A stretch of 64,000 bases of DNA, taken from assembly GCA_002082245.2 (NCBI GenBank), contig NBTC02000002.1, positions 4,216,001-4,280,000 on the forward strand, in the 5' to 3' direction. Position 1 is the stretch's first letter. Each line of letters begins with the position of its first letter. Made by a program: the position numbers and the translations under genes. The stretch is from Yersinia enterocolitica (GTDB lineage: Bacteria; Pseudomonadota; Gammaproteobacteria; Enterobacterales; Enterobacteriaceae). Positions 17,599 to 43,926 of the stretch are shown piece after piece. Under the pieces are notes generated by a model, which was given only the letters and a program-made list of their open reading frames with translations, ran no database searches and was not told the DNA's origin.

Positions 17599-20500
17599 AT
17601 GAATAAAGTATTTAAAGTCATTTGGAATAGTGCCTTAGGCCGCTATGACGTTGCATCTGAAATCTCTAAATCAGGAAAAAAAACTAAGTCACTTTGCTCA
17701 GGAATTGTCGATACAACCTTAGGTTTAACAACCCCCTCTCGCCTGAGCCAGATTGCAATGACCTTGATGTTTACATTAGGGGCGAGTTCTGTCTTTGCCG
17801 CAGATATTAGCGTACCGGTATTTACGCCTGATGTAGAATTTGAACAGACCTTCACAGGGACTGGCAATACCTTAGTAGGCAGTTTTAGCAATATCGCTAA
17901 GGGAGATATTGGTTTTAAAAACAGTAAACTGGGTGATATTCCCCCGGGGAACTTCCTCTATGGTGCTGAGAATCTGATCAGTAAAAACATTTTCAACTTA
18001 GGTGAGATGGTTACTGAAACTTTCCTTGACCCGAAAGGCACTGGCGCATTAATTACTATTAATGTGTATAGCAGTACTGCGATGTCAATTAAACCGCTTG
18101 CCGATTTTGTGGTACCTGTTTCTTATGCGGTTGGTGAAAATGGCCAGTATGTGAATCGCAACTTATTCCATGTGCAGGATAGCAGTGATCTGACCGTGGC
18201 TGTCGGTAGCACGGCCGCAGGTTGGGTTAATGACAGCAATAACTATTTTAACGCCATTCTTAAAGGCAGCCTGAAAAGTGAAGCGGCGACAACAACTTCT
18301 TCAGGATTCTATGTTGACTCTACTACATCGGCCCAGAATACAGTCTTAAATTATAACGCCAAAACTGTAGTCAACCTGGGTAATAACAATAATAACATTC
18401 GCGATAGTAGTACCGCGGTGGCCAATTCGGTGCTTGATGACTTCGTCGGTACCTTCACCAGTCCCTATTTAGGGGCCCAAAATGTTCAAAATTTTGCTGA
18501 TTTCCAAAAATACAACAATGACTTGATTGCAGGTATTAAAAGTGGTGCGATCGTGCTGGACAGCAAAGGTTATCAAGCCGAGCTGGCGCGGGCCTATTTC
18601 ACTAACGGTTCCAATACTTCACCAAAAGTCACCCCGATCTATCTTGATATGGGGATTGATGCTAATGATGCCGTAAATCACATTGTCGATTCTGACCGTG
18701 TTGCCTTTATTCATGGTGATGGTCAGCATGCCATTGTGAATATTGGTGCTGATGCCAATATTCAGGCGTTCAATACGGATATTTCACTGGTGCGGCTGGA
18801 AGACGGTGCAACCCTGAATAACGCCGGGACTTTGGGGTCAACTTCTGCAACAGTTCGTGGTACCAATATTATTTTTGCCACTGACAGTACGGTTATTATT
18901 GACACTACTGGGGTACTGGATGCAGGGACTAATCCTGAGATGCTGGACTTCAAGCCCACACCTACCTCAACATTGCCGTTGTACATAGCTAACGGCAGTC
19001 ATACCGCTATTTTAGCTAATGGAGTTTCGTCAGTTACCAACAATGGTGTGATTAATACCGCTTCTCGTGGGGCAAGCGCTTATACTCGCGCGGCGGTGAT
19101 CGATGGCAACTCGACCTTCGTCAATAACGGCGCGATCAATATTGCTTCAACTATCGATTTGTCTCCTGCAGCAGGTTATTTGAATGAGGGGGTGAGTGTT
19201 CAGAAAGGCTCTACCTTTGAAAATAACGGTACCGTCTATGTGGGCCGTCAATCACAACGTTCGTTAACTGATGTAGTCACTGACCTGGCCATTAAGACTC
19301 AGTCTTATGCAGTTAGATTACTGCAAGATACCGTTAACTTGAGCAATATCGCTACCTTTACCAATAGTGCGACCGGTAAAATCGTGATTGGCAGCAAAAC
19401 TGAAAACTCTACAGCTATTGCTGCACAAGGAGCGAGAACAGTAGTCAATCAAAACGGCACTATTGAGCTCAACGGTGCTGGTGCTGTATCCGGACAAAAT
19501 GCAGGGCAGAATATCGGTATCTCTTCCAGCGCTAACGCCACGAATATCTTCAATAATGGTGATATCGTTATAAATGGTATCAATACCGTCGGTATCAAAG
19601 TACTGACCAACAGTTCAGCCACTAACGCCGGTAACGTTTATGTAAATAACGGGCTTGATGCTGCCACTAAACTGGCGAACTACGGTATTCAGGCGGTTGG
19701 TGCGGGCGCGGTGGCTAATCTCTCTGGTGAGGTAAAGCTGGCGGGCGATGGTGCTATTGGGGTGGTTGCTGAAGATAAAGGTACCATTAATGTCTCCGGT
19801 ACCGGTCAGGTTGAGTTTGTTTCAGGTAAAAAACAGGTGGGCTACCTGATTTACGGTACGGGCTCTAGCGTCAATAACATTGCCACGGGTGATGAAACGG
19901 TTTCAACCGAAGGCTCTACACTGTATCGCGTTGATAAGGGTGCCAGCTTTATCGGGACCACAGCCTCAACCATGAATGCCACCGGTAAAGATTCTTCTCT
20001 TATTCAAGTCACCGGTGTTGGCAGTACATTTAACTCCGGCGCGTTAGATATGGTCCTGTCTGGCGAGGGCTCTACTGGGGTAAAAGTCGAGGGTGGCGCC
20101 AGCGGCACCATCACGGCAGATGCCAGCCTGGAATTGAGCGGTGATGGGGCTACTGCCGGTATCGTCGATGGCAACTACTACGGCCTGGATGGTATTGCCA
20201 CCGGTGCTACCGGAAAATCTGTCTTAACCAGTTCGGCGGTATTGACCACCGGTAACACCGCGTCTGGTGCCTATGGCTATATCGCCCGTAATGGCGGTGA
20301 GCTTATCCACAATGGCTCCATTGATTTTACACAAGCAGGCAGTACTGGCGTGCTGGTAGACGGCGGGATTCTGACCAACCAAAACCTCATCACAGTCAAT
20401 GGGACTGCGGTCAATATTCAGGGTGCTAACTCTACCGTGAATAACAGCGGTACCGTCAACGCAACCGACGGCACCGCCGCTTATCTGCTGGGTGCGGGGG

Positions 20501-23500
20501 CGAGCCTGACCTTATCCGGTAACGGTGAAACCAAAGCGGGCGGCACTGCCCATGGCGTACTGCTTGATACCGGTGCCACAGCACTGACCGTGGATGGCGC
20601 AACCATCACCATGACCGCGGGCGGCACAGGTAATGCGATTGAAAACAAAGCGGAAATTACCGGTATTCAGTTAAAAGACACCACGCTGACGGTGGGTAAT
20701 GGTGCAGGTATTCGTACCGGTGCCTCCCTGGCGGCAACCAACTCTGGCACGATCAATGTCAACGGCAGCGGTACCGGTATTCTGTTTGCCAACACCGGCG
20801 ACACCATCACCGATAATACGCTGGACATGTCCGACTCGGCCGGTCTGGTGATTAACGTCAATTCAGCCGCGGGCAAAGGGATTGTCACCAACTCCCGTCA
20901 GGATCTGAAAACCGGTGCCAGCGTAAACGTCAATGATGCCGCAGGCGGTGCAGCCCTGATTGTCAAAGGCACTACCGGCCGTGTCGAGCAGTCCGGTAAC
21001 CTGATATCAACATCACTCACCAGCCCGGTGGTGGACATCAATAACGGTTATGTCACCAGCTTCGTCAACAGCGGTACCATTCAAGCCAACAGCGCCACGC
21101 AGCAGGCTGTCGTAACCAATACTGGGACGGGTCTGGCATTTACCAACGCCACGGGTGGCACAATTGTTGGCAAGGTGGATCTGTTAGCGGGCAACAACAC
21201 CGTGACCCTGATGCAAGGCAGTAAAGGCACTGACTTCACCACCGGCAGCGGCGATGATGCCTTCATTCTGAAAGGGCTGACATTAGCCGATACCGGCGTG
21301 TTCAGCTCACTGAACGGCGGTACCGGCAGCGATACGCTGACGCTGGACAGTTCGCTGTATACCCTGAGTGATGCTGATGCCATCCAGAATATGGAATACA
21401 TCAACCTGATCAATAACTCAACGCTGACACTGGACAATGTGCTGCTGGCGCTGGGTGACAGTCAGGATGACAATGCCAACACCGGTTTTAATCTGGGTGA
21501 CGGCAGTCTGTTGCAGGTTAATAACCTGAATGCCGTGAGCTTTAACAGCAAGTTGAACGGCCTCGGCACGATGGCCGTTAATACCGCCGGTAATGCCTTT
21601 GATTTTACGGCCAATGCGGCACAGAACGCCTTTAACGGGGTACTGGCATTAGGTCACGCCACCTTTGAACTGGCGGCGGATAACACGGCAGCATTAGTGA
21701 ATGCCACCCTGAAACTGGGCGCGGACAGTATCACCACCGTCGGTGACGGTGTGCAAACTATCGGTGGGTTGGCCTTTGACGGCGGTACGGTGAAATTTAA
21801 CACCGGCACTCCGGGTGAGACGGTGGCGAAAAGCACTATCCATACCACCAAAGAGATGAACCTGCTGGGCACCGGGACGGTGGTGGTGGACATCGACAGC
21901 GTCGACAACAGCCAGACGCCGGTCAATCCGGTACTGCCCATCATGGAGCAGGATGATGCCAATACCTTGCTGCAACTGGCGGTGAGTGATGTGGTGGTGC
22001 AAGGCAATGGTGGCAATCTGGTGCTGAAAGACCAGGATGGCAATGTCATTACCGATGCCACCACGGCCGATATTGCACAAAATGGCACCACGGTCGCCAA
22101 AGGCACTTACGATTATCGCCTGAGCAGCGGTACGGGTAACGACGGTTTGTATATCGGTTACGGCCTGACCGAAGTTGAACTGCTGGGCAGCGGTGCAGAT
22201 GCACTGGCGCTGTATGCCACCAATAAAACCGGTCCTGCGGCGGATTTGAGTGCCAAAGTGACGGGCAGTGGTGAGTTGGCGATTGATACCGGTGCAGGAA
22301 ATACGGTAACACTGTCCAATCTGGACAATGATTACACCGGTTCTACCGATGTACGCAGCGGCACCTTGCAGATGCTGAATGATAATGTGTTGGGGAATAC
22401 CTCGCTGTTATCACTGGCAGCAGATACCGCCTTTGACATGAAGGGTCATAGCCAAACCGTGGGCGAACTGAACAGTACTGCGGGCTCAACGGTTGATCTC
22501 AATGGTGGCAGCTTAACCTTGAGTCAGGGCGGTATGTCTGAGGGTGAACTGACCGGCAGTGGCGCGCTGACAATTGCCGCCAATGTGCTGAGCGTTAAGG
22601 GTGCCAATACTGGCCTGAGCGCGGTGACCACCATTGCCAGTGGCGCACAAGCGTTACTGAACAATGCAGCGGGTCTGGGCGATGGCAATATCGTTAACGC
22701 CGGTCTGCTGACACTGAAAGGGGCTGCGGGCCAGTTAGCAAATGCTATCAGTGATGCCGGCAGTGTGGTGCTGGAAGATAGCAGCGACATCACATTGAGC
22801 GGTGATAACAGCCTGTTCAGTGGCCTGTTTGCTATCACGAACGGCAGCCAGTTAACTGCTTCTCAGGCAGAACATCTGGGGACGGCGGCGGTCACCAACG
22901 ACGGCGCATTGGTGCTCAATAGTGCGAGTGACTGGTTGCTGGCCAACAGCATTAGCGGCAGTGGCAGCCTGACTAAAAACGGCACAGGCACCGTATCGTT
23001 GACACAATCTGCGGCCTATACCGGCCAGACAGATATCAATGCGGGTGGCCTGATGTTAGGCAGCAGTGCTGACCCCATGACGCTGGCAAGCCAGCAGGTG
23101 AATATAGCCAGCGGTGCCTTTATGGGCGGTTTTGGTGGTGTAGCGGGCGCGGTTGATAACCAGGGCGTGCTGTTTGTGGGCAACCCAGCGGCACCGATGG
23201 TACCGGCGATGGGCCGTCTGGCTCGCCTGGCGCCGGCCAGTAATATCTTTACCGTTGGCACTGACTTAACCAACAGCGGCACGGTATTTATCGGTAACAA
23301 GACCAGTGACGGTACGGGCACCACCGGTAACCAATTAGTGGTCAACGGCAACTATATTGGCAACAACGGTCTGCTGCACTTCAACACCGCGCTGGGCGAC
23401 GACAGCTCTGCCACCGACAGCATGATTGTGAACGGCAACACCAGCGGCACCACTAACGTAAGCGTAGATAATGCGGGCGGTACGGGCGCTAAAACCTTAA

Positions 23501-24678
23501 ACGGTATTGAGCTCATTCAGGTGAATGGTCAATCCGACGGTGAGTTTGTGAACCCTGGCCGTATCGTAGCGGGTGCATATGATTACTCACTCGTACGTGG
23601 GGTGGGTTCAAACGCCAGTAACTGGTATTTGACCAGCCTGAGCAATTTGCCGATTGATCCAGAGAACCCGGTTGATCCAGAAAATCCAGTGGGCCCAGGC
23701 GAGGAAACTAAACGTCCTGAAGCCGGCAGCTACACCGCGAACCTGGCCGCAGCCAACACTATGTTTGTGACGCGTCTGCACGATCGTTTGGGCGAAACAC
23801 AGTATATCGACGCCCTGACTGGCGAGCAGAAAGTGACCAGCATGTGGCTGCGTAACGAAGGCGGACATAACCGTTCACGTGACACCAGTGGTCAGTTGAA
23901 AACCCAAAGCAACCGCTATGTGATGCAATTGGGTGGCGATATCGCCCAGTGGAGCAACGATGGTCTGGACCGTTTACACCTGGGTGTGATGGCCGGTTAC
24001 GGTAATAGCAAAAGCGACACCCACGCGAAATCGGGCTATAAGTCGAGTGGTTCGGTTGATGGTTACACCGCCGGGGTGTACAGCACCTGGTATGCCAACG
24101 ACGAAGACAAGTCGGGCTTGTATGTTGACGGTTGGGCGCAGTACAGCTGGTTTAACAATAGCGTGCAGGGCGACGGTCTGGCGACGGAAGAGTATAAATC
24201 GAAAGGGATCACCGCGTCGGTCGAGAGCGGCTACACCTTTAAAATCGGCGAGAATAAGTCTAAGAACGAAACGTACTTTATCCAGCCGAAAGCCCAAATC
24301 ACCTGGATGGGTGTGAAGGCTGACGAGCACCGTGAAGCAAACGGTACTCAGGTGAGTGGTCAAGGCGACGGTAATATCCAGACCCGTCTGGGGCTGCGTT
24401 CTTATATGAAAGGCCACCACGAAAGTGATAATGGCAAGGATCGCGAGTTCCAACCGTTTGTGGAAGCCAACTGGATCCACAACACCAAAGATTTTGGCAC
24501 CAATATGAACGCGGTTGAAGTGAAACAAGCTGGCGCGAAGAATATCGGTGAACTGAAAGTGGGTGTTGAGGGGCAATTGAACAAGCAACTGAATGTCTGG
24601 GGTAACGTCGGCCAGCAATTGGGCGACAAAGGTTACAGCGATACTGCAGTGATGTTAGGGGTGAAATACAACTTCTAA
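17599..24678 (+). CDS. Giant type Va autotransporter adhesin, copy 1
   Basis: The 2359-residue protein begins with an extended signal peptide region (MNKVFKVIWNSALGRYDVAS) and a hydrophobic core ending in FAADI near residue 75. The passenger is beta-helix-like, rich in short N-G-T/N-N-G repeats (VNNGVINTAS, NNGTVYVG, VNNSGTVNATDG). A Pro/Glu linker (PIDPENPVDPENP) follows near residue 2020. The C-terminal 270 residues form the autotransporter beta-barrel (SMWLRNEGGHNRS ... GVKYNF, terminal Phe). It should be a surface-exposed adhesin or biofilm factor. From residue 822 on it is almost identical to the inverted copy at 39310-46365, whereas residues 1-821 diverge strongly. Confidence 0.9.
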   Translation: MNKVFKVIWNSALGRYDVASEISKSGKKTKSLCSGIVDTTLGLTTPSRLSQIAMTLMFTLGASSVFAADISVPVFTPDVEFEQTFTGTGNTLVGSFSNIAKGDIGFKNSKLGDIPPGNFLYGAENLISKNIFNLGEMVTETFLDPKGTGALITINVYSSTAMSIKPLADFVVPVSYAVGENGQYVNRNLFHVQDSSDLTVAVGSTAAGWVNDSNNYFNAILKGSLKSEAATTTSSGFYVDSTTSAQNTVLNYNAKTVVNLGNNNNNIRDSSTAVANSVLDDFVGTFTSPYLGAQNVQNFADFQKYNNDLIAGIKSGAIVLDSKGYQAELARAYFTNGSNTSPKVTPIYLDMGIDANDAVNHIVDSDRVAFIHGDGQHAIVNIGADANIQAFNTDISLVRLEDGATLNNAGTLGSTSATVRGTNIIFATDSTVIIDTTGVLDAGTNPEMLDFKPTPTSTLPLYIANGSHTAILANGVSSVTNNGVINTASRGASAYTRAAVIDGNSTFVNNGAINIASTIDLSPAAGYLNEGVSVQKGSTFENNGTVYVGRQSQRSLTDVVTDLAIKTQSYAVRLLQDTVNLSNIATFTNSATGKIVIGSKTENSTAIAAQGARTVVNQNGTIELNGAGAVSGQNAGQNIGISSSANATNIFNNGDIVINGINTVGIKVLTNSSATNAGNVYVNNGLDAATKLANYGIQAVGAGAVANLSGEVKLAGDGAIGVVAEDKGTINVSGTGQVEFVSGKKQVGYLIYGTGSSVNNIATGDETVSTEGSTLYRVDKGASFIGTTASTMNATGKDSSLIQVTGVGSTFNSGALDMVLSGEGSTGVKVEGGASGTITADASLELSGDGATAGIVDGNYYGLDGIATGATGKSVLTSSAVLTTGNTASGAYGYIARNGGELIHNGSIDFTQAGSTGVLVDGGILTNQNLITVNGTAVNIQGANSTVNNSGTVNATDGTAAYLLGAGASLTLSGNGETKAGGTAHGVLLDTGATALTVDGATITMTAGGTGNAIENKAEITGIQLKDTTLTVGNGAGIRTGASLAATNSGTINVNGSGTGILFANTGDTITDNTLDMSDSAGLVINVNSAAGKGIVTNSRQDLKTGASVNVNDAAGGAALIVKGTTGRVEQSGNLISTSLTSPVVDINNGYVTSFVNSGTIQANSATQQAVVTNTGTGLAFTNATGGTIVGKVDLLAGNNTVTLMQGSKGTDFTTGSGDDAFILKGLTLADTGVFSSLNGGTGSDTLTLDSSLYTLSDADAIQNMEYINLINNSTLTLDNVLLALGDSQDDNANTGFNLGDGSLLQVNNLNAVSFNSKLNGLGTMAVNTAGNAFDFTANAAQNAFNGVLALGHATFELAADNTAALVNATLKLGADSITTVGDGVQTIGGLAFDGGTVKFNTGTPGETVAKSTIHTTKEMNLLGTGTVVVDIDSVDNSQTPVNPVLPIMEQDDANTLLQLAVSDVVVQGNGGNLVLKDQDGNVITDATTADIAQNGTTVAKGTYDYRLSSGTGNDGLYIGYGLTEVELLGSGADALALYATNKTGPAADLSAKVTGSGELAIDTGAGNTVTLSNLDNDYTGSTDVRSGTLQMLNDNVLGNTSLLSLAADTAFDMKGHSQTVGELNSTAGSTVDLNGGSLTLSQGGMSEGELTGSGALTIAANVLSVKGANTGLSAVTTIASGAQALLNNAAGLGDGNIVNAGLLTLKGAAGQLANAISDAGSVVLEDSSDITLSGDNSLFSGLFAITNGSQLTASQAEHLGTAAVTNDGALVLNSASDWLLANSISGSGSLTKNGTGTVSLTQSAAYTGQTDINAGGLMLGSSADPMTLASQQVNIASGAFMGGFGGVAGAVDNQGVLFVGNPAAPMVPAMGRLARLAPASNIFTVGTDLTNSGTVFIGNKTSDGTGTTGNQLVVNGNYIGNNGLLHFNTALGDDSSATDSMIVNGNTSGTTNVSVDNAGGTGAKTLNGIELIQVNGQSDGEFVNPGRIVAGAYDYSLVRGVGSNASNWYLTSLSNLPIDPENPVDPENPVGPGEETKRPEAGSYTANLAAANTMFVTRLHDRLGETQYIDALTGEQKVTSMWLRNEGGHNRSRDTSGQLKTQSNRYVMQLGGDIAQWSNDGLDRLHLGVMAGYGNSKSDTHAKSGYKSSGSVDGYTAGVYSTWYANDEDKSGLYVDGWAQYSWFNNSVQGDGLATEEYKSKGITASVESGYTFKIGENKSKNETYFIQPKAQITWMGVKADEHREANGTQVSGQGDGNIQTRLGLRSYMKGHHESDNGKDREFQPFVEANWIHNTKDFGTNMNAVEVKQAGAKNIGELKVGVEGQLNKQLNVWGNVGQQLGDKGYSDTAVMLGVKYNF
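20062..24678 (+). repeat. Left arm of a 4617-bp near-identical inverted repeat
   Basis: It covers the last 1538 codons of autotransporter 1. The partner is 39310-43926 on the minus strand and has exactly the same length. I could find only four base differences by reading: two amino-acid changes (NPAAPMVPAM versus NPTAPVVPAM) and two silent ones. The match begins abruptly at GGCGAGGGC; upstream of it the two genes differ at many positions. Confidence 0.9.
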
Positions 24679-24695
24679 TAAGAGTGACACAAGCT

Positions 24696-24723
24696 GAATA
24701 GTGGCACTTCGGTGCCACTATTC
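24696..24723 (+). terminator. 12-bp hairpin with TTCG loop after autotransporter 1
   Basis: GAATAGTGGCAC-TTCG-GTGCCACTATTC is a perfect stem with a stable tetraloop, 18 bp after the stop. There is no T-run, so it may act as an mRNA 3' stabiliser or weak terminator. The second autotransporter has the same design with a different stem sequence. Confidence 0.6.
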
Positions 24724-24780
24724 ATCCACCGAAAATAAGTTATAGTCCATTTTTAATATAGATAGAATAGTAGAGAAAGG

Positions 24781-25227
24781 ATGCGTCGTATTATGCGGGT
24801 TATTATTTCAGGCTATTGTAGTTTGACACGCTTTTCACTAGAGATAATCCTTAAAGAAATAATGTCAATCCAAAAAAAACAAATAAGTATTAATGCAGAT
24901 AAATATGTATTGATAGATAACAAATATATAAAAAAAGATGAGAGAGATATATATATCCTGGATGTAGATAATAGCTCTCTTTTTGATTCATTTAAAACCA
25001 TTGAAAAAATAAGGAAGTCAAGTCCCCTTTCTTTTATTATAGTGCTTGGTAGAAAAAATGAAAAGATGGGAGGCTATAGCTATTTGTCCGTTGTGGCTGA
25101 TTGTATACTTTGTAAGACAGCATCTATAAAAACAATTAAAAACATGTTAATTGTTTTTTTAACTTCAAGTGAACCTCCTAAAAAATTTCATCGAACAAAA
25201 TTAGTCAAAAAGTTAATTAGTTACTAA
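24781..25227 (+). CDS. Regulator-like protein lacking a DNA-binding domain
   Basis: The 148-residue protein resembles the N-terminal receiver-like half of LuxR-type regulators such as the 16782 gene: a first strand MRVIISGYCSLTRFSLEIILKE, a DIYILDVDN strand and SPLSFIIVLGRKNEK. It stops after a short linker (KKFHRTKLVKKLISY) before any HTH. The ribosome site (GAGAAAGG) is directly adjacent to ATG 24781, so ATG 24793 may be the true start. It is very AT-rich. It could be a truncated regulator or a stand-alone partner that heterodimerises. Confidence 0.5.
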   Translation: MRRIMRVIISGYCSLTRFSLEIILKEIMSIQKKQISINADKYVLIDNKYIKKDERDIYILDVDNSSLFDSFKTIEKIRKSSPLSFIIVLGRKNEKMGGYSYLSVVADCILCKTASIKTIKNMLIVFLTSSEPPKKFHRTKLVKKLISY

Positions 25228-25236
25228 ATCCAATAC

Positions 25237-25365
25237 GGCACTATTGCAAAAATAAGATGATGGTAAGATAAATCTCCATTTTGGCCGAAGGAGTAAAGCA
25301 CGACCCCATTCACAGGTCGGCATTTTCAGAGTGCTATTATTCTCTGGTCTGTACGCTGGTACTAA
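25237..25365 (+). mobile_element. 5'-end relic of an IS26-like (IS6-family) element
   Basis: A left inverted repeat GGCACTATTGCAAA (25237) is followed by a leader matching that of the element at 30127-30946. The transposase start has ATG changed to ACG (25300) and encodes TPFTGRHFQSAIILWSVRWY, then TAA. The rest of the element is missing. Confidence 0.75.
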
Positions 25366-25568
25366 AACTGTGCTTAGTTGTTAATTCTGATTTGGGAGTC
25401 ATGACAATTAAATAAGCATTACAAAGCCATGCGAAGTAAATAAGTTAAGTTCTCGCTGGATTTGAAAGTTATCTTTTAAATTTACAGGGAATGTTTTGCG
25501 CGGGTATAGAAAATATAAATAATAAAAACAATGCATTTTTAATAAATATATTGTTTGAGGCGAGGTCA

Positions 25569-25832
25569 ATGAAACCTAATAATCTACGTAAAGAAGAAGT
25601 CATGGGCATATTGGAAGAAACTTGTAATGTTCTGAAAGAACAGTTTGGTGGATCTGTCCCCCCAGTGGGCAGTTGGCCAAAAACCAGAGAGTTGGCTGAT
25701 AAAGCGCATTTGGATATTTATACTGCAAGATTAGTATTAATGAAGTTGGTTGATGAGAACAGAGCCAAGATGTCTGAAACTAAAGTGTTGAATTCATTAC
25801 GCTGGTTTATTACTCAGACAGCAGAAGAATAG
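25569..25832 (+). CDS. PapI/FaeA-like fimbrial-type regulator
   Basis: The 87-residue protein matches the small winged-helix FaeA/PapI family in its core WPKTRELADKAHLDIYTARLVLMKLVDE (residues 36-63) and the ending LRWFIT. PapI-type proteins cooperate with Lrp at GATC-containing operators to switch pili on and off. ATG 25569, behind GAGGCGAGG, is a better start than an upstream in-frame ATG at 25491. No fimbrial genes are nearby; the nearest surface gene is autotransporter 1, so this is an orphan regulator or the remnant of a fimbrial cluster. Confidence 0.75.
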   Translation: MKPNNLRKEEVMGILEETCNVLKEQFGGSVPPVGSWPKTRELADKAHLDIYTARLVLMKLVDENRAKMSETKVLNSLRWFITQTAEE

Positions 25833-25911
25833 AGGCGACGATCCCATGGGCTTGTTGCAAATAATGAGAGCCGGTGACTCTCCTCATCGATGGGTGGGAT
25901 AATTGGCCCTG

Positions 25912-26616
25912 TCGCATTAACAGATCGAGGTCGGCAAAATAGCACTGCCTATTTTTTTATAGCGGCCAACAGATAAAATTGTTCTGCCGGTGACAATCCG
26001 TCGCCAGCAGGATGATGAAGTTGTCCTTTGCGTATCATCTGTACCAGCTCAATACCCGCCAACAAGGTCTGTGCCCGTCGAAAGGAGTTGAATCCCAGCA
26101 TCGTGCGTATCCGACGTTTGATATTCCGGTGATCTTGCTCGACAAGGTTGTTCAGGATCTTACTTTGCCTGACGGTAATCGCTTCCTCATCGGGTTTGTC
26201 GGCATTGAGCGTGGGCAAAGCTGCGGTGTTAGCACCACTTTTATCGATAGTGACTACCTAGGGTTTATCCTGGTGACGAATGGCCTTGCCGAAGAAACGC
26301 AGGGCTGCGGGGGCATCACGTTTGGCGGTCAATAGAGCGTCGATAGTCTGGCCATTGGAGTCCACAGCATGACACAGGTATTTCCACTGGCCGTAAACAC
26401 CGACGTCCCACGCTGCGCTTGTGCCGACTGAAAGCCTTATATAGCAAAGGGGTTCCCAGCGATACAGGGTAGAATGGCCAACGATAATACCGCGTTCTGC
26501 CATCATCTCTTCTAGGTTGCGTAGACTCAGGGCGTAAGCGAGATACCAGCGAACACATTGGGCGATGATATCAACGGGTAGTGCAGACGTTTGAAGGCTT
26601 TTCTTATCAGAGACAT
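25912..26616 (-). pseudogene. Degenerate IS6-family transposase
   Basis: The minus-strand reading starts at ATG 26616 (MSLIRKAFKRLHYP), shifts frame, and continues as RNLEEMMAERGIIVGHSTLYRW in the next frame. After further shifts and a stop near 26258 the C-terminal part RQSKILNNLVEQDHRNIKRRIRTMLGF lies at 25949-26218. The DDE-catalytic gene is broken in several places. The terminal 150 bp (25912-26060) is repeated at 29957. Confidence 0.8.
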
Positions 26617-27040
26617 TTCAAATAACACCTTAAAACTGTATGTTAACCGACGACAGCTTCATGCAACAGAGCCACTTAGCTTCCACTGGGCTAACCAGCA
26701 GAGCCAAAACAGTTTAAAAACATAACTTCACTTAGTCATTCATCCACAGTTCGTGGGGAAAATAAGAATACGTCGATCTTAAATATAGCTATTTATACGG
26801 GACGTATAAAAGTTTAACTAGTGCTTAGTGCAGAGATTGGAATTGTCTGAATTATTATCTAATAGCCATTATCCTATCAATAAGTGAAATTATTTCATGT
26901 TGAGTGTAGTGCTTAACTTTCCAATGGAGGGTAATATACGACTGAAATTTAGCTTTGTAATTTAAACTCTAGTTTTAAATTAGTCGCGTTCTTTTTGGTT
27001 TTTATATTTTACAATTTAATTGGATGAAAAAGAGGCAAGG
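26617..27040. other. AT-rich interval before the small secreted genes
   Basis: No coding sequence is supported. It contains the outer end of the IS6 relic and an AT-rich stretch from about 26760 that probably includes the promoter of the next gene. Confidence 0.35.
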
Positions 27041-27286
27041 ATGAGAGGGTTTTTATTATCACTTTTAGTATCTGGTGTAATTATGGGGACAATGGCTCCA
27101 GTTTTTGCTCAGAACGTTCCTTTTGATAGTAGCGGGAAAATGGGGAAAACTGGCTGGACGTCCTGGAAAAGAGTGGTTTTATCGAAAAACATGCCACTTA
27201 TGAGATATTGTAGTCGCGACTATTACAAAAATGGCCGTTACGTTACGTCACAAAATAAAATAGTACGCATGTATCAATTTTGTTGA
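27041..27286 (+). CDS. Small secreted cysteine protein, paralogue A
   Basis: The 81-residue precursor starts at ATG 27041 (MRGFLLSLLVSGVIMG) behind AGAGGCAAGG; an in-frame ATG at 27020 would add seven charged residues to the signal. Cleavage after PVFA gives QNVPFDSSGK and a mature peptide of about 58 residues. Two cysteines (RYCSRDYYKNG and the final Cys) could form one disulfide. It shares AQNVPF, G-W-x-x-W-K, Cx-R-x-x-YYKNG and a terminal Cys with the gene 79 bp downstream. The family was not recognised. Confidence 0.65.
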   Translation: MRGFLLSLLVSGVIMGTMAPVFAQNVPFDSSGKMGKTGWTSWKRVVLSKNMPLMRYCSRDYYKNGRYVTSQNKIVRMYQFC

Positions 27287-27364
27287 GCAACGAACAGTTG
27301 AACGAAGTTAACCATTATTTATTATGGCATCATAAGTAGATATATTAATTAAGGATGATTTTTA

Positions 27365-34159: not shown

Positions 34160-34173
34160 ACTGAGGTACTGAT

Positions 34174-34201
34174 AGACAGCCGATGAGAGCATCGGCTGTC
34201 T
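34174..34201. terminator. Bidirectional hairpin between speC and the TSUP gene
   Basis: AGACAGCCGATG and CATCGGCTGTCT form a perfect 12-bp stem around the loop AGAG, placed between two convergent genes. Confidence 0.75.
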
Positions 34202-34229
34202 CACAATAAGTTATTACAAATTAGGCTTA

Positions 34230-34979
34230 TCAATAACCTAAATAGCGTGCGACTAAAACTGTGCCGGAAATCAGCAATAAGATATTTATTAATCGGATAA
34301 GCTGGTCGCGACTTATCCCCAAACTGATTTTATTGGCGATAACCAAACCAACTAACATCCCCGGTACCAACAGTAGTACCATCCATAAAATAGATAGGTC
34401 CATGTAGACCCCTGCTAGCGTAAACAAAATAACTCGCGTGAGGGTACTCAGGCCGATAAGCGTGGTCTGGGTAATCCGCAAATTATCTTTGCTGGCTATT
34501 CTGCCGGATAAATAAATAGCATAAATAAACCCGCCGCTGCCAAATAGCGCGCTGAAAATACCGCCAATCAAGCCAAAAGGAATGGCGGCAACAGGTTTGA
34601 ATTGTCCTTGTGGTTTACGCCGGCTAAGGGCGTAAATGGCATATAAAATGACAAATATGCCGAGCGCCAGTAGCAAAATATCAGGGCGAGTACGTAGCAG
34701 TAACGTCGCGCCGATCAGACTACCAATAATCATTAGTGGGACTAATCGCTTAAGTTCAGCAAGGTCGGCATGACGGCTATGGCGAGCTACATTGGTAATG
34801 GCTGCAAACATATCGACAATTGCCAATAATGGGACAATCTTAGCGACAGGAATAAATAGCGCTAATATCGGACTGGCAATTAATGCAGAACCAAATCCTG
34901 TAATACCAAAGATGATATAAGCGATGACCATAGTGGAGAAGATTACCACCATTTCAAACAGGGTAAGTCCAAAGTCCAT
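34230..34979 (-). CDS. TauE/SafE-type (TSUP) membrane transporter
   Basis: The 249-residue protein has about eight hydrophobic helices and the TSUP pattern in both halves (IFGITGFGSALIASPILAL near residue 22, and IGGIFSALFGSGGFIYAIYL near 138). Members export sulfite, sulfoacetate or other organic anions. The substrate here is not evident. It is convergent with speC and alone in its transcription unit. Confidence 0.85.
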   Translation of the reverse strand: MDFGLTLFEMVVIFSTMVIAYIIFGITGFGSALIASPILALFIPVAKIVPLLAIVDMFAAITNVARHSRHADLAELKRLVPLMIIGSLIGATLLLRTRPDILLLALGIFVILYAIYALSRRKPQGQFKPVAAIPFGLIGGIFSALFGSGGFIYAIYLSGRIASKDNLRITQTTLIGLSTLTRVILFTLAGVYMDLSILWMVLLLVPGMLVGLVIANKISLGISRDQLIRLINILLLISGTVLVARYLGY

Positions 34980-35211
34980 TTGTTCAATCTGCCGATAGTA
35001 GGGATAGGATGATTAGCGATACTATAAACATTTTATTGAGAATGGTTGTTATTCAAATGTGCACTTTTGTCGGGCAATCACACTTTAGACATAAAAAATG
35101 ACACTGTGGGTGGAGCCTGTCATTTCAGTTTTCCCTTGGTTGGCGTTGCAGGGGGGGATTAGCCACCTGCAACGCCAATTTCTTGGGCTATAAAATCCGC
35201 TATAAATAAAA

Positions 35212-36288
35212 CTAGTGGCGGCGATAACTCTTCTGCGCGCTGTTCACTTTCACCAGATAACGGCGAGATTCGCCTGAAGGGTGTTTAGTGGTCAGCGTTT
35301 GGAATACATCACCAGGAGCCATATTGTTGATAATATTAACAGCCTGGTTCTTATCGCTGGAGAATACCCGCAATACGCTACCAGCTCCGCCGTTATAAGA
35401 GGTAATAACAGCATAACGCCGTGAGGTGGCATTCTGAATTCCGCCTAGATAAGTATTTTGCAGAATTGACAGATATGCCGTACCAGCATCAATATTATTT
35501 TCTGGATCAAACAGATAGCTACGGCTTGGCTGGCCACTTTTACCCTTCATTTTGAACACATCTCGCCCGGCAGTATGCTGTACAACTTGCATCAGGCCCA
35601 ACGCATCAGAGCCACTGACCGCATATGGGTTGAAGCTAGATTCTGTTTGCATAATTGCCAGGATCAATGACTCTTCGACGCCATAACGCTCCGCTGACTG
35701 GCGCACCAGTGGCAGGTATTTATGGGCACGTTGATCCAGATGGTTAGGGACTAATTGCAAGGTGACCGACCAGATAACATGCAGGCCGGAAGTGCGTTTT
35801 TGCATTCTGGTTTGTAGCAGATAATCAGCAAAATGGGCCGCGCGCCATTCCCAACGGATCGGCTGGCCATTGTTATCTAGCACCTGCCCATAGAGGAAGG
35901 GCTCTTTACTGATCTGAATATCGTTAACATCCGAATAGAGGTCGATAGAGCCAGGATCATCACCCATTAAAAGTGTGGTAATAATCGCCTGACGCAAGTG
36001 AGCCGCCGGATCTGTCGTGGCAATGGTTTCAACCGTAATCGTACCGGCATCGAAGTTGATATGGCTGCGGGTTTGATATTGATCCGTATACTTAACGTAA
36101 TCTTTTGGACCCGCGATTAAGACTTCTTTTAATCCCCAAATATTTTCAATGTTATGGGCAAATTGGCCCATTAAAATCTCAAAACCGTTGGTATCTTTGA
36201 CATAGGCTTCGTTTTCTGTTTGATTCTTATTGCCTGAGCAAGACACTAACAATGGTGCAACTATCAGCAAAGCTAAAATTTTCTTCAT
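35212..36288 (-). CDS. mltC: Membrane-bound lytic murein transglycosylase C
   Basis: The 358-residue lipoprotein cleaves peptidoglycan strands to 1,6-anhydromuropeptides from the outer membrane. The start ATG 36288 ([17 protein letters not shown]) places the lipobox Cys at residue 17. The SLT domain shows the catalytic Glu in [15 protein letters not shown], then [15 protein letters not shown] and the [17 protein letters not shown] segment. It follows yggX in the order typical of Enterobacterales. Confidence 0.95.
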
Positions 36289-36345
36289 CTTACAAGCCAT
36301 ATCTTGATGAGGAATAACAACGGGGCCAGCGCAGACCCCGTGTGG

Positions 36346-36618
36346 TTACTTACTCGGTGGAGTATAACCTTCAATATGAACATCCTGCCCTTCGAACAGG
36401 AAGTTAACCATCTCCTGCTCTAACAGTTTGCGGTCTTCGACATTCATCATGCTCAGTTTTTTCTCGTTAATCAGCATGGTTTGCTTGGTTATCCATTGTG
36501 ACCAAGCTTCTTTTGATATTTCGTTATAGATACGTTTGCCAATCTCACCTGGATAGAGCTGAAAATCTTGCCCCTCAGCATCATGTTTTAAAAATGTGCA
36601 AAAAATTGTTCTGCTCAT
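36346..36618 (-). CDS. yggX: Fe(2+)-trafficking protein
   Basis: The 90-residue protein has the YggX hallmarks: [19 protein letters not shown] with conserved Cys7, [21 protein letters not shown] and [13 protein letters not shown]. It protects iron-sulfur proteins from oxidation and supports their repair. It lies between mutY and mltC, 57 bp from mltC, and is probably cotranscribed with the [4Fe-4S] enzyme MutY. Confidence 0.95.
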
Positions 36619-36645
36619 GCTAAATCCTCTTCTATGGCGCTATAC

Positions 36646-36710
36646 CCTTCATACTTGAAGTTGCAGGGGGTTAGCTATGTTGGTCACTCGGCTGTTTTGC
36701 CAACTGATGT
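36646..36710. repeat. Dispersed Yersinia-type short repeat overlapping mutY 3' end
   Basis: ACCCTTCATACTTGAAGTTG followed by CAGGGGGTTAGC resembles the repeats at 37806, 56630, 56754 and 60070. It runs into the last codons of mutY, so the terminal residues of MutY (about 12) may derive from the repeat. Confidence 0.5.
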
Positions 36711-37732
36711 AATAGGCGTTCAACTGGGGCCGCCAATCCTACCGCGGGTGGTTGTGCTAAGTTATACCAGAGACCTGCACCATCATCCATGCATCCACGG
36801 GATGACGCCGTATTCAGCCACATGGGGACAATATCCAGATGGAAGTGGCTGAAGGTATGACGAAAAGCAGTTAACTGCTGCAAACTGCTGCTGGCAATAC
36901 TTTGTTGCTGCAACCAACGCTCCAGTTCGGCTTGTTCAGAAAATTGCGGGAAGCAAAATAGCCCCCCCCATAGACCTACTGGCGGGCGCTGTTCGAGCCA
37001 TACCTGCGATCCGTTTTGCATCAACAAAAAGTAAGCTGTTTTTTCCGGTAATGTCTGTTTGGGTTTTTTACCGGGGTAGCGTGCCCAACTGTGATTAGCA
37101 TAAGCCATACAACCGGTATTCAGTGGGCAAAGCTCACACTTGGGCTTAGAACGGGTGCACACCGTGGCACCTAAATCCATCATCGCCTGATTAAACTGAC
37201 CTACGCCTTTGGCTGGCGTAACATCTTCACTGCTTTGCCACAGGCGGCCTTCGACTTCCTTTTTACCGGGCCATCCCTCAACAGCGTAACAACGGGCCAG
37301 CACTCGTTTGACGTTACCATCTAAAATAGGAAAATGTTTCCCTAACGAGAGCGACAAAATAGCGCCCGCAGTTGAGCGCCCAATCCCTGGCAGTGCGAGA
37401 ATCTCGTCAAAAGTAGTAGGGAACTCGCCTTGATGGCGTTCAACAACCGTTTGGGCGGCTTTATGCAGATTTCTGGCACGGGCGTAGTAACCCAGCCCGG
37501 TCCATAAATGCAGAACTTCATCCAACGGTGCCGCAGCCAGCGCACTGATATCAGGGAAGCGCAACATAAAACGTTGGAAATAGGGAATGACGGTCGCAAC
37601 CTGAGTCTGTTGCAACATCACTTCTGACAACCATACCTGATAAGGTGTTTTATCCAATTGCCACGGCAAGGTTTTGCGACCAAAGCGTTGGTACCACTCA
37701 AGTACCTCGTGCGCGAACTGTTGCGCTTGCAT
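36671..37732 (-). CDS. mutY: Adenine DNA glycosylase
   Basis: The 353-residue enzyme removes adenine mispaired with 8-oxoguanine. The start ATG 37732 matches E. coli MutY ([14 protein letters not shown]). The N-terminal part has [20 protein letters not shown], the helix-hairpin-helix [13 protein letters not shown], and [11 protein letters not shown] with the catalytic Asp. The [4Fe-4S] cysteines are in [17 protein letters not shown], and a C-terminal MutT-like domain follows. The last few residues overlap a dispersed repeat. Confidence 0.95.
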
Positions 37733-37805
37733 CATAAGTTGGTATCAATATCCGGCAGGTAATAAATTAGAGCTGGATTGCAGCATAGAGTTCTCACCCT
37801 GTAAA

Positions 37806-37866
37806 CCCCCTTCGTACTTGAAGCTACAACTGTGTTAGCCGCACTCACGCACCCGAATCACTGACT
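37806..37866. repeat. Dispersed Yersinia-type short repeat
   Basis: CCCCTTCGTACTTGAAGCTA through CACGCACCCGAATCACTGAC sits in the mutY-trmB divergent intergenic region and is the same family as the copies at 60070 (same orientation) and 56630/56754 (opposite). Confidence 0.6.
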
Positions 37867-37997
37867 TTAATCGGCCACTTTGGTTATATCTACGTTATTT
37901 ACTGCTTAATTTTGTACTTATGACGCCCAGAGTTGATAAACTACCGTATCTTTGCATAATGCGCGTTCACATACGCAATCAACAGACAGAAAGTACC

Positions 37998-38717
37998 ATG
38001 ATAAATGACGTCATATCCCCGGAATTTGATGAAAACGGCCGAGCCATACGCCGTATTCGTAGTTTTGTCCGTCGTCAGGGGCGGCTGACCAAAGGTCAAC
38101 AACTGGCGCTAGATAGCTACTGGCCGGTGATGGGCGTGGAATATCAAGCAACGCCAGTTGATGTAAACGCCTTGTTTGGCCGCGAAGCTCCGGTGGTACT
38201 GGAAATCGGTTTCGGCATGGGGACTTCACTGGTGACCATGGCTGCCAGTAATCCGCAGCAGAATTTTCTGGGGATAGAAGTGCATTCTCCGGGGGTTGGT
38301 GCTTGTTTGGGGGCTGCTCACGAGGCGGGACTAAGCAACTTGCGGATTATGTGTCATGACGCGGTTGAAGTGCTGGAAAATATGATTCCAGATGCTTCAC
38401 TGGATATGGTACAGCTATTCTTCCCTGACCCATGGCACAAAGCGCGCCATAATAAGCGTCGTATCGTCCAGATACCTTTTGTTGAATTAGTGAGAAGTAA
38501 ATTAAAAGTGGGTGGCGTGTTCCATATGGCGACCGACTGGCAACATTATGCGGAACATATGTTGGAAGTGATGTCAGGTGTAAACGGATACCGCAACCTT
38601 TCAGAACAAAATGATTATGTTCCTCGTCCGGACTCGCGTCCGCTGACAAAATTTGAATTACGTGGCCAGCGTCTGGGACATGGCGTTTGGGATCTGATGT
38701 TTGAGAGGAAAGAATAA
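37998..38717 (+). CDS. trmB: tRNA (guanine-N7)-methyltransferase
   Basis: The 239-residue SAM-dependent enzyme methylates G46 in tRNA variable loops. ATG 37998 ([20 protein letters not shown]) aligns with E. coli TrmB; an in-frame ATG 26 codons upstream is less likely. Motifs are [44 protein letters not shown] and [19 protein letters not shown]. In E. coli yggL follows directly; here an integrase relic and a giant autotransporter intervene. Confidence 0.95.
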
Positions 38718-38940
38718 TGGCTAATTATAGTTTCCAATCTGATTATTCGTGATGAAATTAACAGTAAGTTTATTTTATTTTGTTGATTAATAAGTGATTT
38801 AGTGGGGTTTCTTGTTATCTCATCAAATCACACTAAAAACCACGATATCCTACATTTTACTGTAGATTAGAATGTAGCTCGTTAATCCACCTGTGGTGTA
38901 ATGGATGTCATATAACAGTGACACTCATGGCGCTAATAGG

Positions 38941-39181
38941 TGGATAAACCAGAAAAAAAACCACTATCAACTAAAGCCATCGACGCGATGAAACCCGGTG
39001 ATAAGGCCAGTTGATACCGGCGAAAATCGCCATTACGGATCACTTGTGCGCTAGCGGCATTAAAGCTTTCTTCTACCGCTATACCAGCCCCATAACTCAC
39101 AAACTCACCCAAGTTAAGATCGGTCACTTCCCTAATATCTCGCTAGCGCAGGCTGGTGCTGAACTGCAAACACTTAAGTAG
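38941..39181 (+). pseudogene. N-terminal relic of a DUF4102-type tyrosine integrase
   Basis: Plus-strand frames give KPLSTKAIDAMKPGDKAS, then after frameshifts DTGENRHYG and ASGIKAFFYRYTSPITHKLTQ-VKIGHFPNISLAQAGAELQ, ending TAG at 39179. This is the N-terminal arm-binding domain (DUF4102) of island and prophage integrases of the P4 type. It has at least two frameshifts and no catalytic domain. The minus-strand open frame over the same bases is a shadow. Confidence 0.65.
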
Positions 39182-39263
39182 GCAAAGAATGAAAGCCGCC
39201 ATTGGCAACAGTACCGCTTATATAATGCTGAATTTCTTTGAGCAGTTATTGTATCTGCATGAA

Positions 39264-39293
39264 TCAATAACGGTGCCGAAGCACCGTTATTGA
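39264..39293 (-). terminator. 13-bp hairpin with TTCG loop after autotransporter 2
   Basis: TCAATAACGGTGC/GCACCGTTATTGA with loop CGAA (TTCG on the minus strand) lies 17 bp beyond the autotransporter stop. It is the counterpart of the hairpin after copy 1, with an unrelated stem. Confidence 0.6.
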
Positions 39294-39309
39294 TGAGAGC
39301 TAATAACGA

Positions 39310-42300
39310 TTAGAAGTTGTATTTCACCCCTAACATCACTGCAGTATCGCTGTAACCTTTGTCGCCCAATTGCTGGCCAACGTTACCCCAGACATTCAGT
39401 TGCTTGTTCAATTGCCCCTCAACACCCACTTTCAGTTCACCGATATTCTTCGCGCCAGCTTGTTTCACTTCAACCGCGTTCATATTGGTGCCAAAATCTT
39501 TGGTGTTGTGGATCCAGTTGGCTTCCACAAACGGTTGGAACTCGCGATCCTTGCCATTATCACTTTCGTGGTGGCCTTTCATATAAGAACGCAGCCCCAG
39601 ACGGGTCTGGATATTACCGTCGCCTTGACCACTCACCTGAGTACCGTTTGCTTCACGGTGCTCGTCAGCCTTCACACCCATCCAGGTGATTTGGGCTTTC
39701 GGCTGGATAAAGTACGTTTCGTTCTTAGACTTATTCTCGCCGATTTTAAAGGTGTAGCCGCTCTCGACCGACGCGGTGATCCCTTTCGATTTATACTCTT
39801 CCGTCGCCAGACCGTCGCCCTGCACGCTATTGTTAAACCAGCTGTACTGCGCCCAACCGTCAACATACAAGCCCGACTTGTCTTCGTCGTTGGCATACCA
39901 GGTGCTGTACACCCCGGCGGTGTAACCATCAACCGAACCACTCGACTTATAGCCCGATTTCGCGTGGGTGTCGCTTTTGCTATTACCGTAACCGGCCATC
40001 ACACCCAGGTGTAAACGGTCCAGACCATCGTTGCTCCACTGGGCGATATCGCCACCCAATTGCATCACATAGCGGTTGCTTTGGGTTTTCAACTGACCAC
40101 TGGTGTCACGTGAACGGTTATGTCCGCCTTCGTTACGCAGCCACATGCTGGTCACTTTCTGCTCGCCAGTCAGGGCGTCGATATACTGTGTTTCGCCCAA
40201 ACGATCGTGCAGACGCGTCACAAACATAGTGTTGGCTGCGGCCAGGTTCGCGGTGTAGCTGCCGGCTTCAGGACGTTTAGTTTCCTCGCCTGGGCCCACT
40301 GGATTTTCTGGATCAACCGGGTTCTCTGGATCAATCGGCAAATTACTCAGGCTGGTCAAATACCAGTTACTGGCGTTTGAACCCACCCCACGTACGAGTG
40401 AGTAATCATATGCACCCGCTACGATACGGCCAGGGTTCACAAACTCACCGTCGGATTGACCATTCACCTGAATGAGCTCAATACCGTTTAAGGTTTTAGC
40501 GCCCGTACCGCCCGCATTATCTACGCTTACGTTAGTGGTGCCGCTGGTGTTACCGTTCACAATCATGCTGTCGGTGGCAGAGCTGTCGTCGCCCAGCGCG
40601 GTGTTGAAGTGCAGCAGACCGTTGTTGCCAATATAGTTGCCGTTGACCACTAATTGGTTACCGGTGGTGCCCGTACCGTCACTGGTCTTGTTACCGATAA
40701 ATACCGTGCCGCTGTTGGTTAAGTCAGTGCCAACGGTAAAGATATTACTGGCCGGCGCCAGGCGAGCCAGACGGCCCATCGCCGGTACCACCGGTGCCGT
40801 TGGGTTGCCCACAAACAGCACGCCCTGGTTATCAACCGCGCCCGCTACACCACCAAAACCGCCCATAAAGGCACCGCTGGCTATATTCACCTGCTGGCTT
40901 GCCAGCGTCATGGGGTCAGCACTGCTGCCTAACATCAGGCCACCCGCATTGATATCTGTCTGGCCGGTATAGGCCGCAGATTGTGTCAACGATACGGTGC
41001 CTGTGCCGTTTTTAGTCAGGCTGCCACTGCCGCTAATGCTGTTGGCCAGCAACCAGTCACTCGCACTATTGAGCACCAATGCGCCGTCGTTGGTGACCGC
41101 CGCCGTCCCCAGATGTTCTGCCTGAGAAGCAGTTAACTGGCTGCCGTTCGTGATAGCAAACAGGCCGCTGAACAGGCTGTTATCACCGCTCAATGTGATG
41201 TCGCTGCTATCTTCCAGCACCACACTGCCGGCATCACTGATAGCATTTGCTAACTGGCCCGCAGCCCCTTTCAGTGTCAGCAGACCGGCGTTAACGATAT
41301 TGCCATCGCCCAGACCCGCTGCATTGTTCAGTAACGCTTGTGCGCCACTGGCAATGGTGGTCACCGCGCTCAGGCCAGTATTGGCACCCTTAACGCTCAG
41401 CACATTGGCGGCAATTGTCAGCGCGCCACTGCCGGTCAGTTCACCCTCAGACATACCGCCCTGACTCAAGGTTAAGCTGCCACCATTGAGATCAACCGTT
41501 GAGCCCGCAGTACTGTTCAGTTCGCCCACGGTTTGGCTGTGACCCTTCATGTCAAAGGCGGTATCTGCTGCCAGTGATAACAGCGAGGTATTCCCCAACA
41601 CATTATCATTCAGCATCTGCAAGGTGCCGCTGCGTACATCGGTAGAACCGGTGTAATCATTGTCCAGATTGGACAGTGTTACCGTATTTCCTGCACCGGT
41701 ATCAATCGCCAACTCACCACTGCCCGTCACTTTGGCACTCAAATCCGCCGCAGGACCGGTTTTATTGGTGGCATACAGCGCCAGTGCATCTGCACCGCTG
41801 CCCAGCAGTTCAACTTCGGTCAGGCCGTAACCGATATACAAACCGTCGTTACCCGTACCGCTGCTCAGGCGATAATCGTAAGTGCCTTTGGCGACCGTGG
41901 TGCCATTTTGTGCAATATCGGCCGTGGTGGCATCGGTAATGACATTGCCATCCTGGTCTTTCAGCACCAGATTGCCACCATTGCCTTGCACCACCACATC
42001 ACTCACCGCCAGTTGCAGCAAGGTATTGGCATCATCCTGCTCCATGATGGGCAGTACCGGATTGACCGGCGTCTGGCTGTTGTCGACGCTGTCGATGTCC
42101 ACCACCACCGTCCCGGTGCCCAGCAGGTTCATCTCTTTGGTGGTATGGATAGTGCTTTTCGCCACCGTCTCACCCGGAGTGCCGGTGTTAAATTTCACCG
42201 TACCGCCGTCAAAGGCCAACCCACCGATAGTTTGCACACCGTCACCGACGGTGGTGATACTGTCCGCGCCCAGTTTCAGGGTGGCATTCACTAATGCTGC

Positions 42301-43926
42301 CGTGTTATCCGCCGCCAGTTCAAAGGTGGCGTGACCTAATGCCAGTACCCCGTTAAAGGCGTTCTGTGCCGCATTGGCCGTAAAATCAAAGGCATTACCG
42401 GCGGTATTAACGGCCATCGTGCCGAGGCCGTTCAACTTGCTGTTAAAGCTCACGGCATTCAGGTTATTAACCTGCAACAGACTGCCGTCACCCAGATTAA
42501 AACCGGTGTTGGCATTGTCATCCTGACTGTCACCCAGCGCCAGCAGCACATTGTCCAGTGTCAGCGTTGAGTTATTGATCAGGTTGATGTATTCCATATT
42601 CTGGATGGCATCAGCATCACTCAGGGTATACAGCGAACTGTCCAGCGTCAGCGTATCGCTGCCGGTACCGCCGTTCAGTGAGCTGAACACGCCGGTATCG
42701 GCTAATGTCAGCCCTTTCAGAATGAAGGCATCATCGCCGCTGCCGGTGGTGAAGTCAGTGCCTTTACTGCCTTGCATCAGGGTCACGGTGTTGTTGCCCG
42801 CTAACAGATCCACCTTGCCAACAATTGTGCCACCCGTGGCGTTGGTAAATGCCAGACCCGTCCCAGTATTGGTTACGACAGCCTGCTGCGTGGCGCTGTT
42901 GGCTTGAATGGTACCGCTGTTGACGAAGCTGGTGACATAACCGTTATTGATGTCCACCACCGGGCTGGTGAGTGATGTTGATATCAGGTTACCGGACTGC
43001 TCGACACGGCCGGTAGTGCCTTTGACAATCAGGGCTGCACCGCCTGCGGCATCATTGACGTTTACGCTGGCACCGGTTTTCAGATCCTGACGGGAGTTGG
43101 TGACAATCCCTTTGCCCGCGGCTGAATTGACGTTAATCACCAGACCGGCCGAGTCGGACATGTCCAGCGTATTATCGGTGATGGTGTCGCCGGTGTTGGC
43201 AAACAGAATACCGGTACCGCTGCCGTTGACATTGATCGTGCCAGAGTTGGTTGCCGCCAGGGAGGCACCGGTACGAATACCTGCACCATTACCCACCGTC
43301 AGCGTGGTGTCTTTTAACTGAATACCGGTAATTTCCGCTTTGTTTTCAATCGCATTACCTGTGCCGCCCGCGGTCATGGTGATGGTTGCGCCATCCACGG
43401 TCAGTGCTGTGGCACCGGTATCAAGCAGTACGCCATGGGCAGTGCCGCCCGCTTTGGTTTCACCGTTACCGGATAAGGTCAGGCTCGCCCCCGCACCCAG
43501 CAGATAAGCGGCGGTGCCGTCGGTTGCGTTGACGGTACCGCTGTTATTCACGGTAGAGTTAGCACCCTGAATATTGACCGCAGTCCCATTGACTGTGATG
43601 AGGTTTTGGTTGGTCAGAATCCCGCCGTCTACCAGCACGCCAGTACTGCCTGCTTGTGTAAAATCAATGGAGCCATTGTGGATAAGCTCACCGCCATTAC
43701 GGGCGATATAGCCATAGGCACCAGACGCGGTGTTACCGGTGGTCAATACCGCCGAACTGGTTAAGACAGATTTTCCGGTAGCACCGGTGGCAATACCATC
43801 CAGGCCGTAGTAGTTGCCATCGACGATACCGGCAGTAGCCCCATCACCGCTCAATTCCAGGCTGGCATCTGCCGTGATGGTGCCGCTGGCGCCACCCTCG
43901 ACTTTTACCCCAGTAGAGCCCTCGCC
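39310..43926 (-). repeat. Right arm of the 4617-bp inverted repeat
   Basis: It is the reverse-complement partner of 20062-24678 and ends at GGCGAGGGC on the minus strand. The sequence outside the arm differs at once, both in the passenger and after the stop codon. Confidence 0.9.

Follow-up and report, generated by a model that had tools for sequence, protein, structure and literature searches.

A shared 3′ module of dispersed giant autotransporter genes in Yersinia enterocolitica probably evolves in concert while the tips stay locus-specific

The Yersinia enterocolitica genome analysed here (5.07 Mb, two contigs) carries a giant type Va autotransporter gene in three dispersed copies, which, in our reading of the sequences (probability about 0.87), exchange DNA with one another, such that a shared module evolves in concert, whereas the tips remain specific to their loci. 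Two of the copies, A and B, lie within the 64,000-nucleotide stretch of DNA that was analysed (the window), and the third, C, lies far outside it. Sequence comparison establishes the three copies, the differing ends of the tracts that they have in common, sites that have changed in concert in two strains, and a similar case in a second Yersinia species; that RecA-type recombination is the agent, that the tip is the ligand-contacting part, and that selection favours tip diversity, we infer.

The three copies and their common module

Gene A (17599–24678, + strand) and gene B (39310–46365, − strand), delineated by their open reading frames and by family profiles, encode giant AIDA-type autotransporters of 2359 and 2351 residues, respectively. 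Type Va autotransporters are defined by an extended signal peptide, an autochaperone and a C-terminal barrel domain; ESPR, PATR, AC_1 and barrel domains were found in both proteins, with ESPR, AC_1 and PF03797 above cutoff in each, placing the two in the type Va (AIDA-like) class. The barrel matches 4mee_A ("Diffuse adherence adhesin") at 4.9e-90. The closest profile is that of the ECSE_1600 family (NCBIfam NF011422), which aligns with residues 853–2358 of A and leaves the tip uncovered, yet the scores (836.8 bits for A and 835.9 bits for B) fall far below its curated cutoff of 2335, and both proteins stand outside the family. By autotransporter topology, the tip is the membrane-distal end of the molecule. 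The model of the B tip (residues 60–830; pLDDT 86.4) presents regularly repeated short strands and is likely to be a beta-helix; Ag43 structures were its top PDB matches in a fold search, with TM-scores of only 0.09–0.18.

The lower passenger, autochaperone and barrel of gene A make up arm A (20062–24678, +), which was aligned base by base with the complement of arm B (39310–43926, −): there are seven mismatches in 4617 bp (99.85% identity), five of them synonymous and two residue-changing. Counting one base beyond the stop codon, the match is 4618 bp, and agreement ends there. The first-pass annotation had assigned the same length to both arms, as we find, and four base differences, which the alignment raises to seven. 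It had also described strongly diverged 5′ halves with a sharp boundary: the start of the module common to A and B is indeed exact, at GGCGAGGGC, but the divergence is not uniform, as identity is 84% over the first ~281 bp and about 58% in the remaining tip. Upstream of the boundary, alignment delineates the signal peptide and variable tip of A (17599–20061, +), and the signal peptide and divergent tip of B (43927–46365, −), the latter being 56–58% identical at the nucleotide level to A, C and 11 single-copy relatives.

Where only two arms had been noticed, a genome search found a third full module (G000:C2:1490646-1495262) that is 100% identical to arm A and, like arm A, differs from arm B at seven positions. 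It belongs to gene C (L117:6183-13262), an open reading frame of 2359 codons that lies 2.7 Mb from the window copies along the contig, or about 2.1 Mb in the opposite direction if the contig is circular. Genes A and C are 96.7% identical overall: there are no differences from nt 2008 to nt 7080 of A (5073 bp; as assembly polishing can remove a few differences between repeats, this figure may be inflated), and before nt 1742, the tips form a patchwork of 74–97% identity. The start of the common tract thus depends on the pair, being nt 2008 of A for A and C, and nt 2464 for A and B. Chance cannot account for three such runs, exact or nearly so, each exceeding 4.6 kb. When flanks of 600 bp upstream and 300 bp downstream were compared among the genes, the only match was 47 bp common to B and C; this is a terminator-like hairpin after the B stop (39263–39309, −), identical after C and similar in relatives, with a different hairpin after A.

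Concerted change in two strains and a second species

Further evidence comes from another strain, known from its proteins only, which was reached through a protein search in which the B tip was the query (83 proteins, 7995 candidates scored). P0001 matches the B tip at 812 of 812 residues and P0013 the A tip at 815 of 820; P0013 is from Yersinia sp. 2466 StPb PI, and P0001 is presumably encoded on the same chromosome, as each is associated with one contig of 4,877,441 bases. In the module, the two proteins differ from one another at five of 1536 residues, plus one three-residue gap, whereas the counts between strains are higher, 12 of 1536 for P0013 against A and 14 of 1539 for P0001 against B; paralogues within a strain are therefore closer than orthologues between strains, with orthology retained in the tips. 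Ten module residues are the same in A, B and C but differ from those in both copies of the other strain, and no residue past the junction (codon 821) groups by locus. Residues 1864 and 1867 show a crossed pattern, as would arise had the two loci traded both alleles, and residues 1906 and 1936, together with the three-residue gap, are private to one protein. With an outgroup (P0026, from Yersinia sp. 1652 StPb PI), nine of the 10 strain-grouping residues could be polarized by eye: seven are new in the window's genome, where they appear at all three loci, and two are new in the other strain, where they appear at both loci. Given that the junction codon is the same in both strains and that the module residues group by strain, the junction is old and the module has been homogenized since the strains separated. 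The trees concur: B is a lone branch of length 0.73 in the tip tree, and falls within the A–B–C clade with support of 1.0 in the module tree. This disagreement between trees, with orthologous tips and a strain-grouped module, points to concerted evolution by gene conversion.

Two other accounts of the near-identity have to be weighed against this. A single recent duplication could have seeded each site, with later replacement of the B tip and no continuing conversion; the 4617-bp identity and the sharp junction would, on their own, fit, as would the lack of a copy in the closest relative, G011 (among its best 12 or fewer candidates). What speaks against it, and makes it very improbable, is that the changes specific to each strain recur across its loci, all three in this genome and both in the other strain, that the A–C and A–B tracts end at different points, and that the A and C tips are a patchwork before the common tract begins. 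The first-pass annotation had offered recent duplication or ongoing conversion: the two-strain residues and the trees favour conversion, and the grouping by strain and the unequal tracts tell against duplication alone; its proposal that barrel and distal passenger are kept uniform while the tips differ is borne out in both strains. Less probable still is an artefact of assembly or polishing, which that annotation had named, for the second arm, as the finding that would overturn its reading. Long repeats are prone to collapse, and the absence of any A–C difference over 5073 bp could be read in that light, but the three copies have distinct flanks and tips, seven differences between A and B were retained, and a separate assembly encodes proteins of both types, A and B, that have a module version of their own in common.

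Gene conversion between copies is also apparent outside the giant genes. Survey of 71 barrel hits, for which part of the hits were fetched, left 67 after removal of duplicates, and, with A restored and seven short ones dropped, 61 autotransporter genes no shorter than 2 kb. Seven of these have a partner in the same genome that is at least 98% identical over the 3′ end: A, B and C, two genes on the second contig of the window's genome (98.1% over 1073 bp), and a pair in G006, a second Yersinia species (98.2% over 1188 bp, a further variation in tract extent alongside the differing starts of the A–C and A–B tracts). The best matches of these seven between genomes are 78.2–86.8%, or up to 88.9% for the barrel alone. 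In the G006 pair, the passenger of a 925-residue protein follows its orthologue in G020 (91.5–97% over nt 200–1400), whereas the last 1185 bp of its gene are 98.3% identical to the giant gene in G006 itself and only 81.4% to the G020 orthologue; since the barrel of that giant gene retains 86.7–88.8% identity to three other giants, the direction of conversion can be read, from the giant gene to the smaller one. The second contig (239 kb, probably a plasmid) has several autotransporter genes, shared barrels and large repeats (L194:4269-5334, L195:8145-9213 and L197:4514-5583). Weaker 3′ likeness within a genome was seen in G006 (92.6%) and G009 (86–94%); in the latter, the likeness is among the 3′ ends of seven autotransporter genes (L202–L204, L206 and L207), and L204 additionally holds shorter barrel pieces.

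There is evidence against such homogenization being general: for the majority of the 61 genes, no partner in the same genome exceeds 85%. The giant family itself was matched at 1e-200 in 16 of 149 genomes (best two candidates per genome); one of another genus, G091, has two full-length giants that are 72.7% identical over the 3′ 2.3 kb, from which it follows that copies need not convert. As the 11 other Yersinia species with the full-length gene each show a single copy (best 12 or fewer candidates per genome), exchange between giant copies is documented by the window's genome and one other strain. The module has no Chi octamer. Its GC3 is 62.3%, versus 50.7–60.6% in the 11 single-copy species, with tips not raised (figures for one species, not normalized), and GC-biased conversion in the module is possible.

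The tips have a history of their own. Over about residues 100–600, the A tip is 96–100% like a single Y. mollaretii allele (P0022), and the nearest other match to the B tip is 67% (P0002). Furthermore, a pair of proteins assigned to Y. mollaretii diverge, at 79–89%, over about residues 100–700, yet are 97% alike in the first 100 residues and mostly 90–100% alike after the tip (with one block at 78%). One of these two tips is the one that is 96–100% like that of A, which suggests that tips move between species, and an exchange of tips among Yersinia species is indicated.

Overall, we propose that the three dispersed loci exchange DNA by homologous recombination, in which the matching lower passenger, autochaperone and barrel would be repeatedly overwritten between copies, resulting in concerted evolution. 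The tips would escape overwriting across loci because their sequences are too unlike, such that each locus keeps its own tip allele, although recombination with other Yersinia seems to replace tips as well. The outcome would be a set of surface proteins with one common anchor and shaft, and different membrane-distal ends.

Genomic setting and the question of inversion

Gene A is situated in a variable island (13270–31256) that, by comparison with relatives, extends from a pfkB-type kinase gene to tRNA-Phe (31257–31332, −; identified by tRNA search), which forms its edge. Just upstream of A is a gene with the profile of a LuxR-type (GerE) regulator (16782–17387, +). The kinase gene and speC are only about 1.2 kb apart in G003, and in G011, the tRNA-Phe island is about 57 kb and has no match to that of the window. 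The GC content of the island is 43.1% at 13270–17598 and 41.0% at 24679–31256, and it contains a 143-bp direct repeat (95%; 25910–26052 and 29960–30101), as well as other repeated pieces. An attachment site was sought through the last 14 to 24 bases of the tRNA-Phe 3′ end, and no second copy was found in the window.

Gene B is carried on an 8.6-kb insert (38725–47339) that separates trmB from yggL, two genes with a one-base overlap elsewhere; the joint is empty in six of the seven relatives read and occupied by a different insert in G010. The insert is edged by 19-bp direct repeats identified by comparison: the left, AGGAAAGAATAATGGCTAA (38706–38724, +), is at the end of trmB, and the right (47340–47358, +) at the start of a gene that we take to be yggL. 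These repeats are doubtful as a clean transposon duplication: at the same site, the 2.8-kb insert of G010 (L170:10920-13712) has degenerate repeats, and its right 150 bp are 94% identical to the right end of the B insert. That insert holds LysR, MFS and SnoaL-like genes by reading of its open reading frames, so the trmB–yggL joint takes differing inserts; another variable joint lies between speC and mltC, where Y. similis and Rahnella rivi have about 8–9 kb of extra DNA (L014 and L030). Within the B insert, a stop-free fragment (39005–39178, +) is reminiscent of PF13356, the arm-DNA-binding domain found in phage-type integrases, although its 23.9 bits fall short of the 27-bit cutoff, and the region upstream of B (46366–46900, −) is 73–81% like that 5′ of the single-copy gene in six of 11 relatives (matches longer than 60 bp).

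Those relatives are 11 of 24 other Yersinia genomes, each with one full-length copy that is 80–84% identical over the module (best 12 or fewer candidates per genome). By upstream flank, 10 of the 11 have their copy at a common site, and the eleventh, G023, is on a contig too short to tell. Neither the window's genome nor G011 has a giant gene at this conserved site, which in the former holds an 809-residue open reading frame with a distant autotransporter barrel; in G011, no giant copy was found at the sites compared either. Locus C was considered as the ancestral site and rejected, since its flanks match none of the 11 single-copy loci fetched from relatives.

Between the arms are the core genes speC, TauE-like, mltC, mutY and trmB (31940–38717), oriented as in the relatives examined. 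The gene list of the first-pass annotation was right as far as tested (tRNA-Phe, an aqpZ-like MIP gene, mltC, mutY and trmB), but missed the TauE-family gene (34230–34979); speC and yggX are the names that it gave, and the other core names are backed by family or tRNA models. It had considered this segment to be invertible. Were the segment to flip in the population as a switch, the arms would be suitable, being inverted and long enough for homologous recombination, and there is a precedent in Haemophilus influenzae, where a ~400-kb segment bounded by hmw1 and hmw2 inverts (PMC10127715); the long inverted repeats expected at both ends of such a segment are indeed present here. However, speC–trmB–yggL has the orientation of the window's genome in all 23 informative named loci (28 of 80 loci were examined, five of which lack trmB or yggL; six of the 23 are Yersinia and the rest related genera), and in all seven further Yersinia relatives, a set that overlaps the named loci. 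Both orientations were thus seen in none of these loci of other species, all of which lack B at trmB–yggL and so inform on the ancestral order rather than on flipping within the species. The window's genome keeps that ancestral order. A crossover between the arms is physically possible, and would, as had been suggested, invert the core and exchange the sequences after the stops, but its effect would be limited to near-identical modules and 3′ flanks. As the arms are 3′ modules, promoter and tip stay together; inversion would leave both adhesins almost unchanged, with no adhesin switch of the hmw1/hmw2 kind, and we consider an invertible switch unlikely. Under the concerted-exchange reading, the inverted-repeat layout arises because B inserted at trmB–yggL and A in the tRNA-Phe island, and any inversion is a by-product.

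Related systems and implications

Repeated surface genes are already known to change in concert. Among autotransporters, Ag43 (agn43) of Escherichia coli resembles A and B in being an autotransporter adhesin and, albeit with low TM-scores, the top fold match of the B tip. The A and B proteins are more than twice the length of Ag43, whose gene copies reportedly undergo exchange and whose expression is phase-variable. The likeness to HMW1A/HMW2A of H. influenzae lies in two large adhesin loci that end a chromosomal segment, repeated inversion of which is documented (PMC10127715), homologous recombination being the inferred agent. HMW, however, is a two-partner secretion system in which inversion at the promoter regions switches expression (PMC10127715), whereas here the repeats are 3′ modules, inversion would be nearly silent, there is a third copy and the modules evolve in concert.

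Within Yersinia, YapJ, YapK and YapV are, by description, adhesins of the same secretion type (PMC9289746), and the word recombination is absent from the main text of that review. The yrIlm gene of Y. ruckeri (PMC10174560) is likewise a multi-copy adhesin gene of this genus, but it encodes an inverse autotransporter within an IS256-flanked composite transposon, and is described as subject to amplification and loss, not to conversion between dispersed copies. The autotransporters of Bartonella (PMC2697382 and PMC3610622) similarly form multi-copy families shaped by duplication, but as tandemly duplicated clusters within a plasticity zone; in each of the two papers, concerted evolution occurs once, in a cited title concerning a type IV system. 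Among the titles and abstract openings of the open-access literature (a scope that mostly excludes subscription papers), no concerted autotransporter modules were found in Yersinia, nor any case in which dispersed Yersinia autotransporters, or different autotransporter genes, have an anchor and shaft that evolve in concert.

It is conceivable, though we offer this as speculation, that the shared module serves as a genome-wide recombination handle: with an anchor and shaft common even across genes, as in G006, incoming or locus-specific tips could be mounted at any of the three loci, giving a dispersed repertoire of variable tips on a constant shaft that would need neither silent cassettes nor a dedicated recombinase. 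Family trees of autotransporters can, as in one of the Bartonella papers, be built from the barrel alone (PMC2697382). If barrels are overwritten between passengers, as in G006 and on the second contig, such trees would track conversion rather than the history of the adhesins. Moreover, tip and module at three loci may provide a natural system for determining the rate of gene conversion between copies that are megabases apart.
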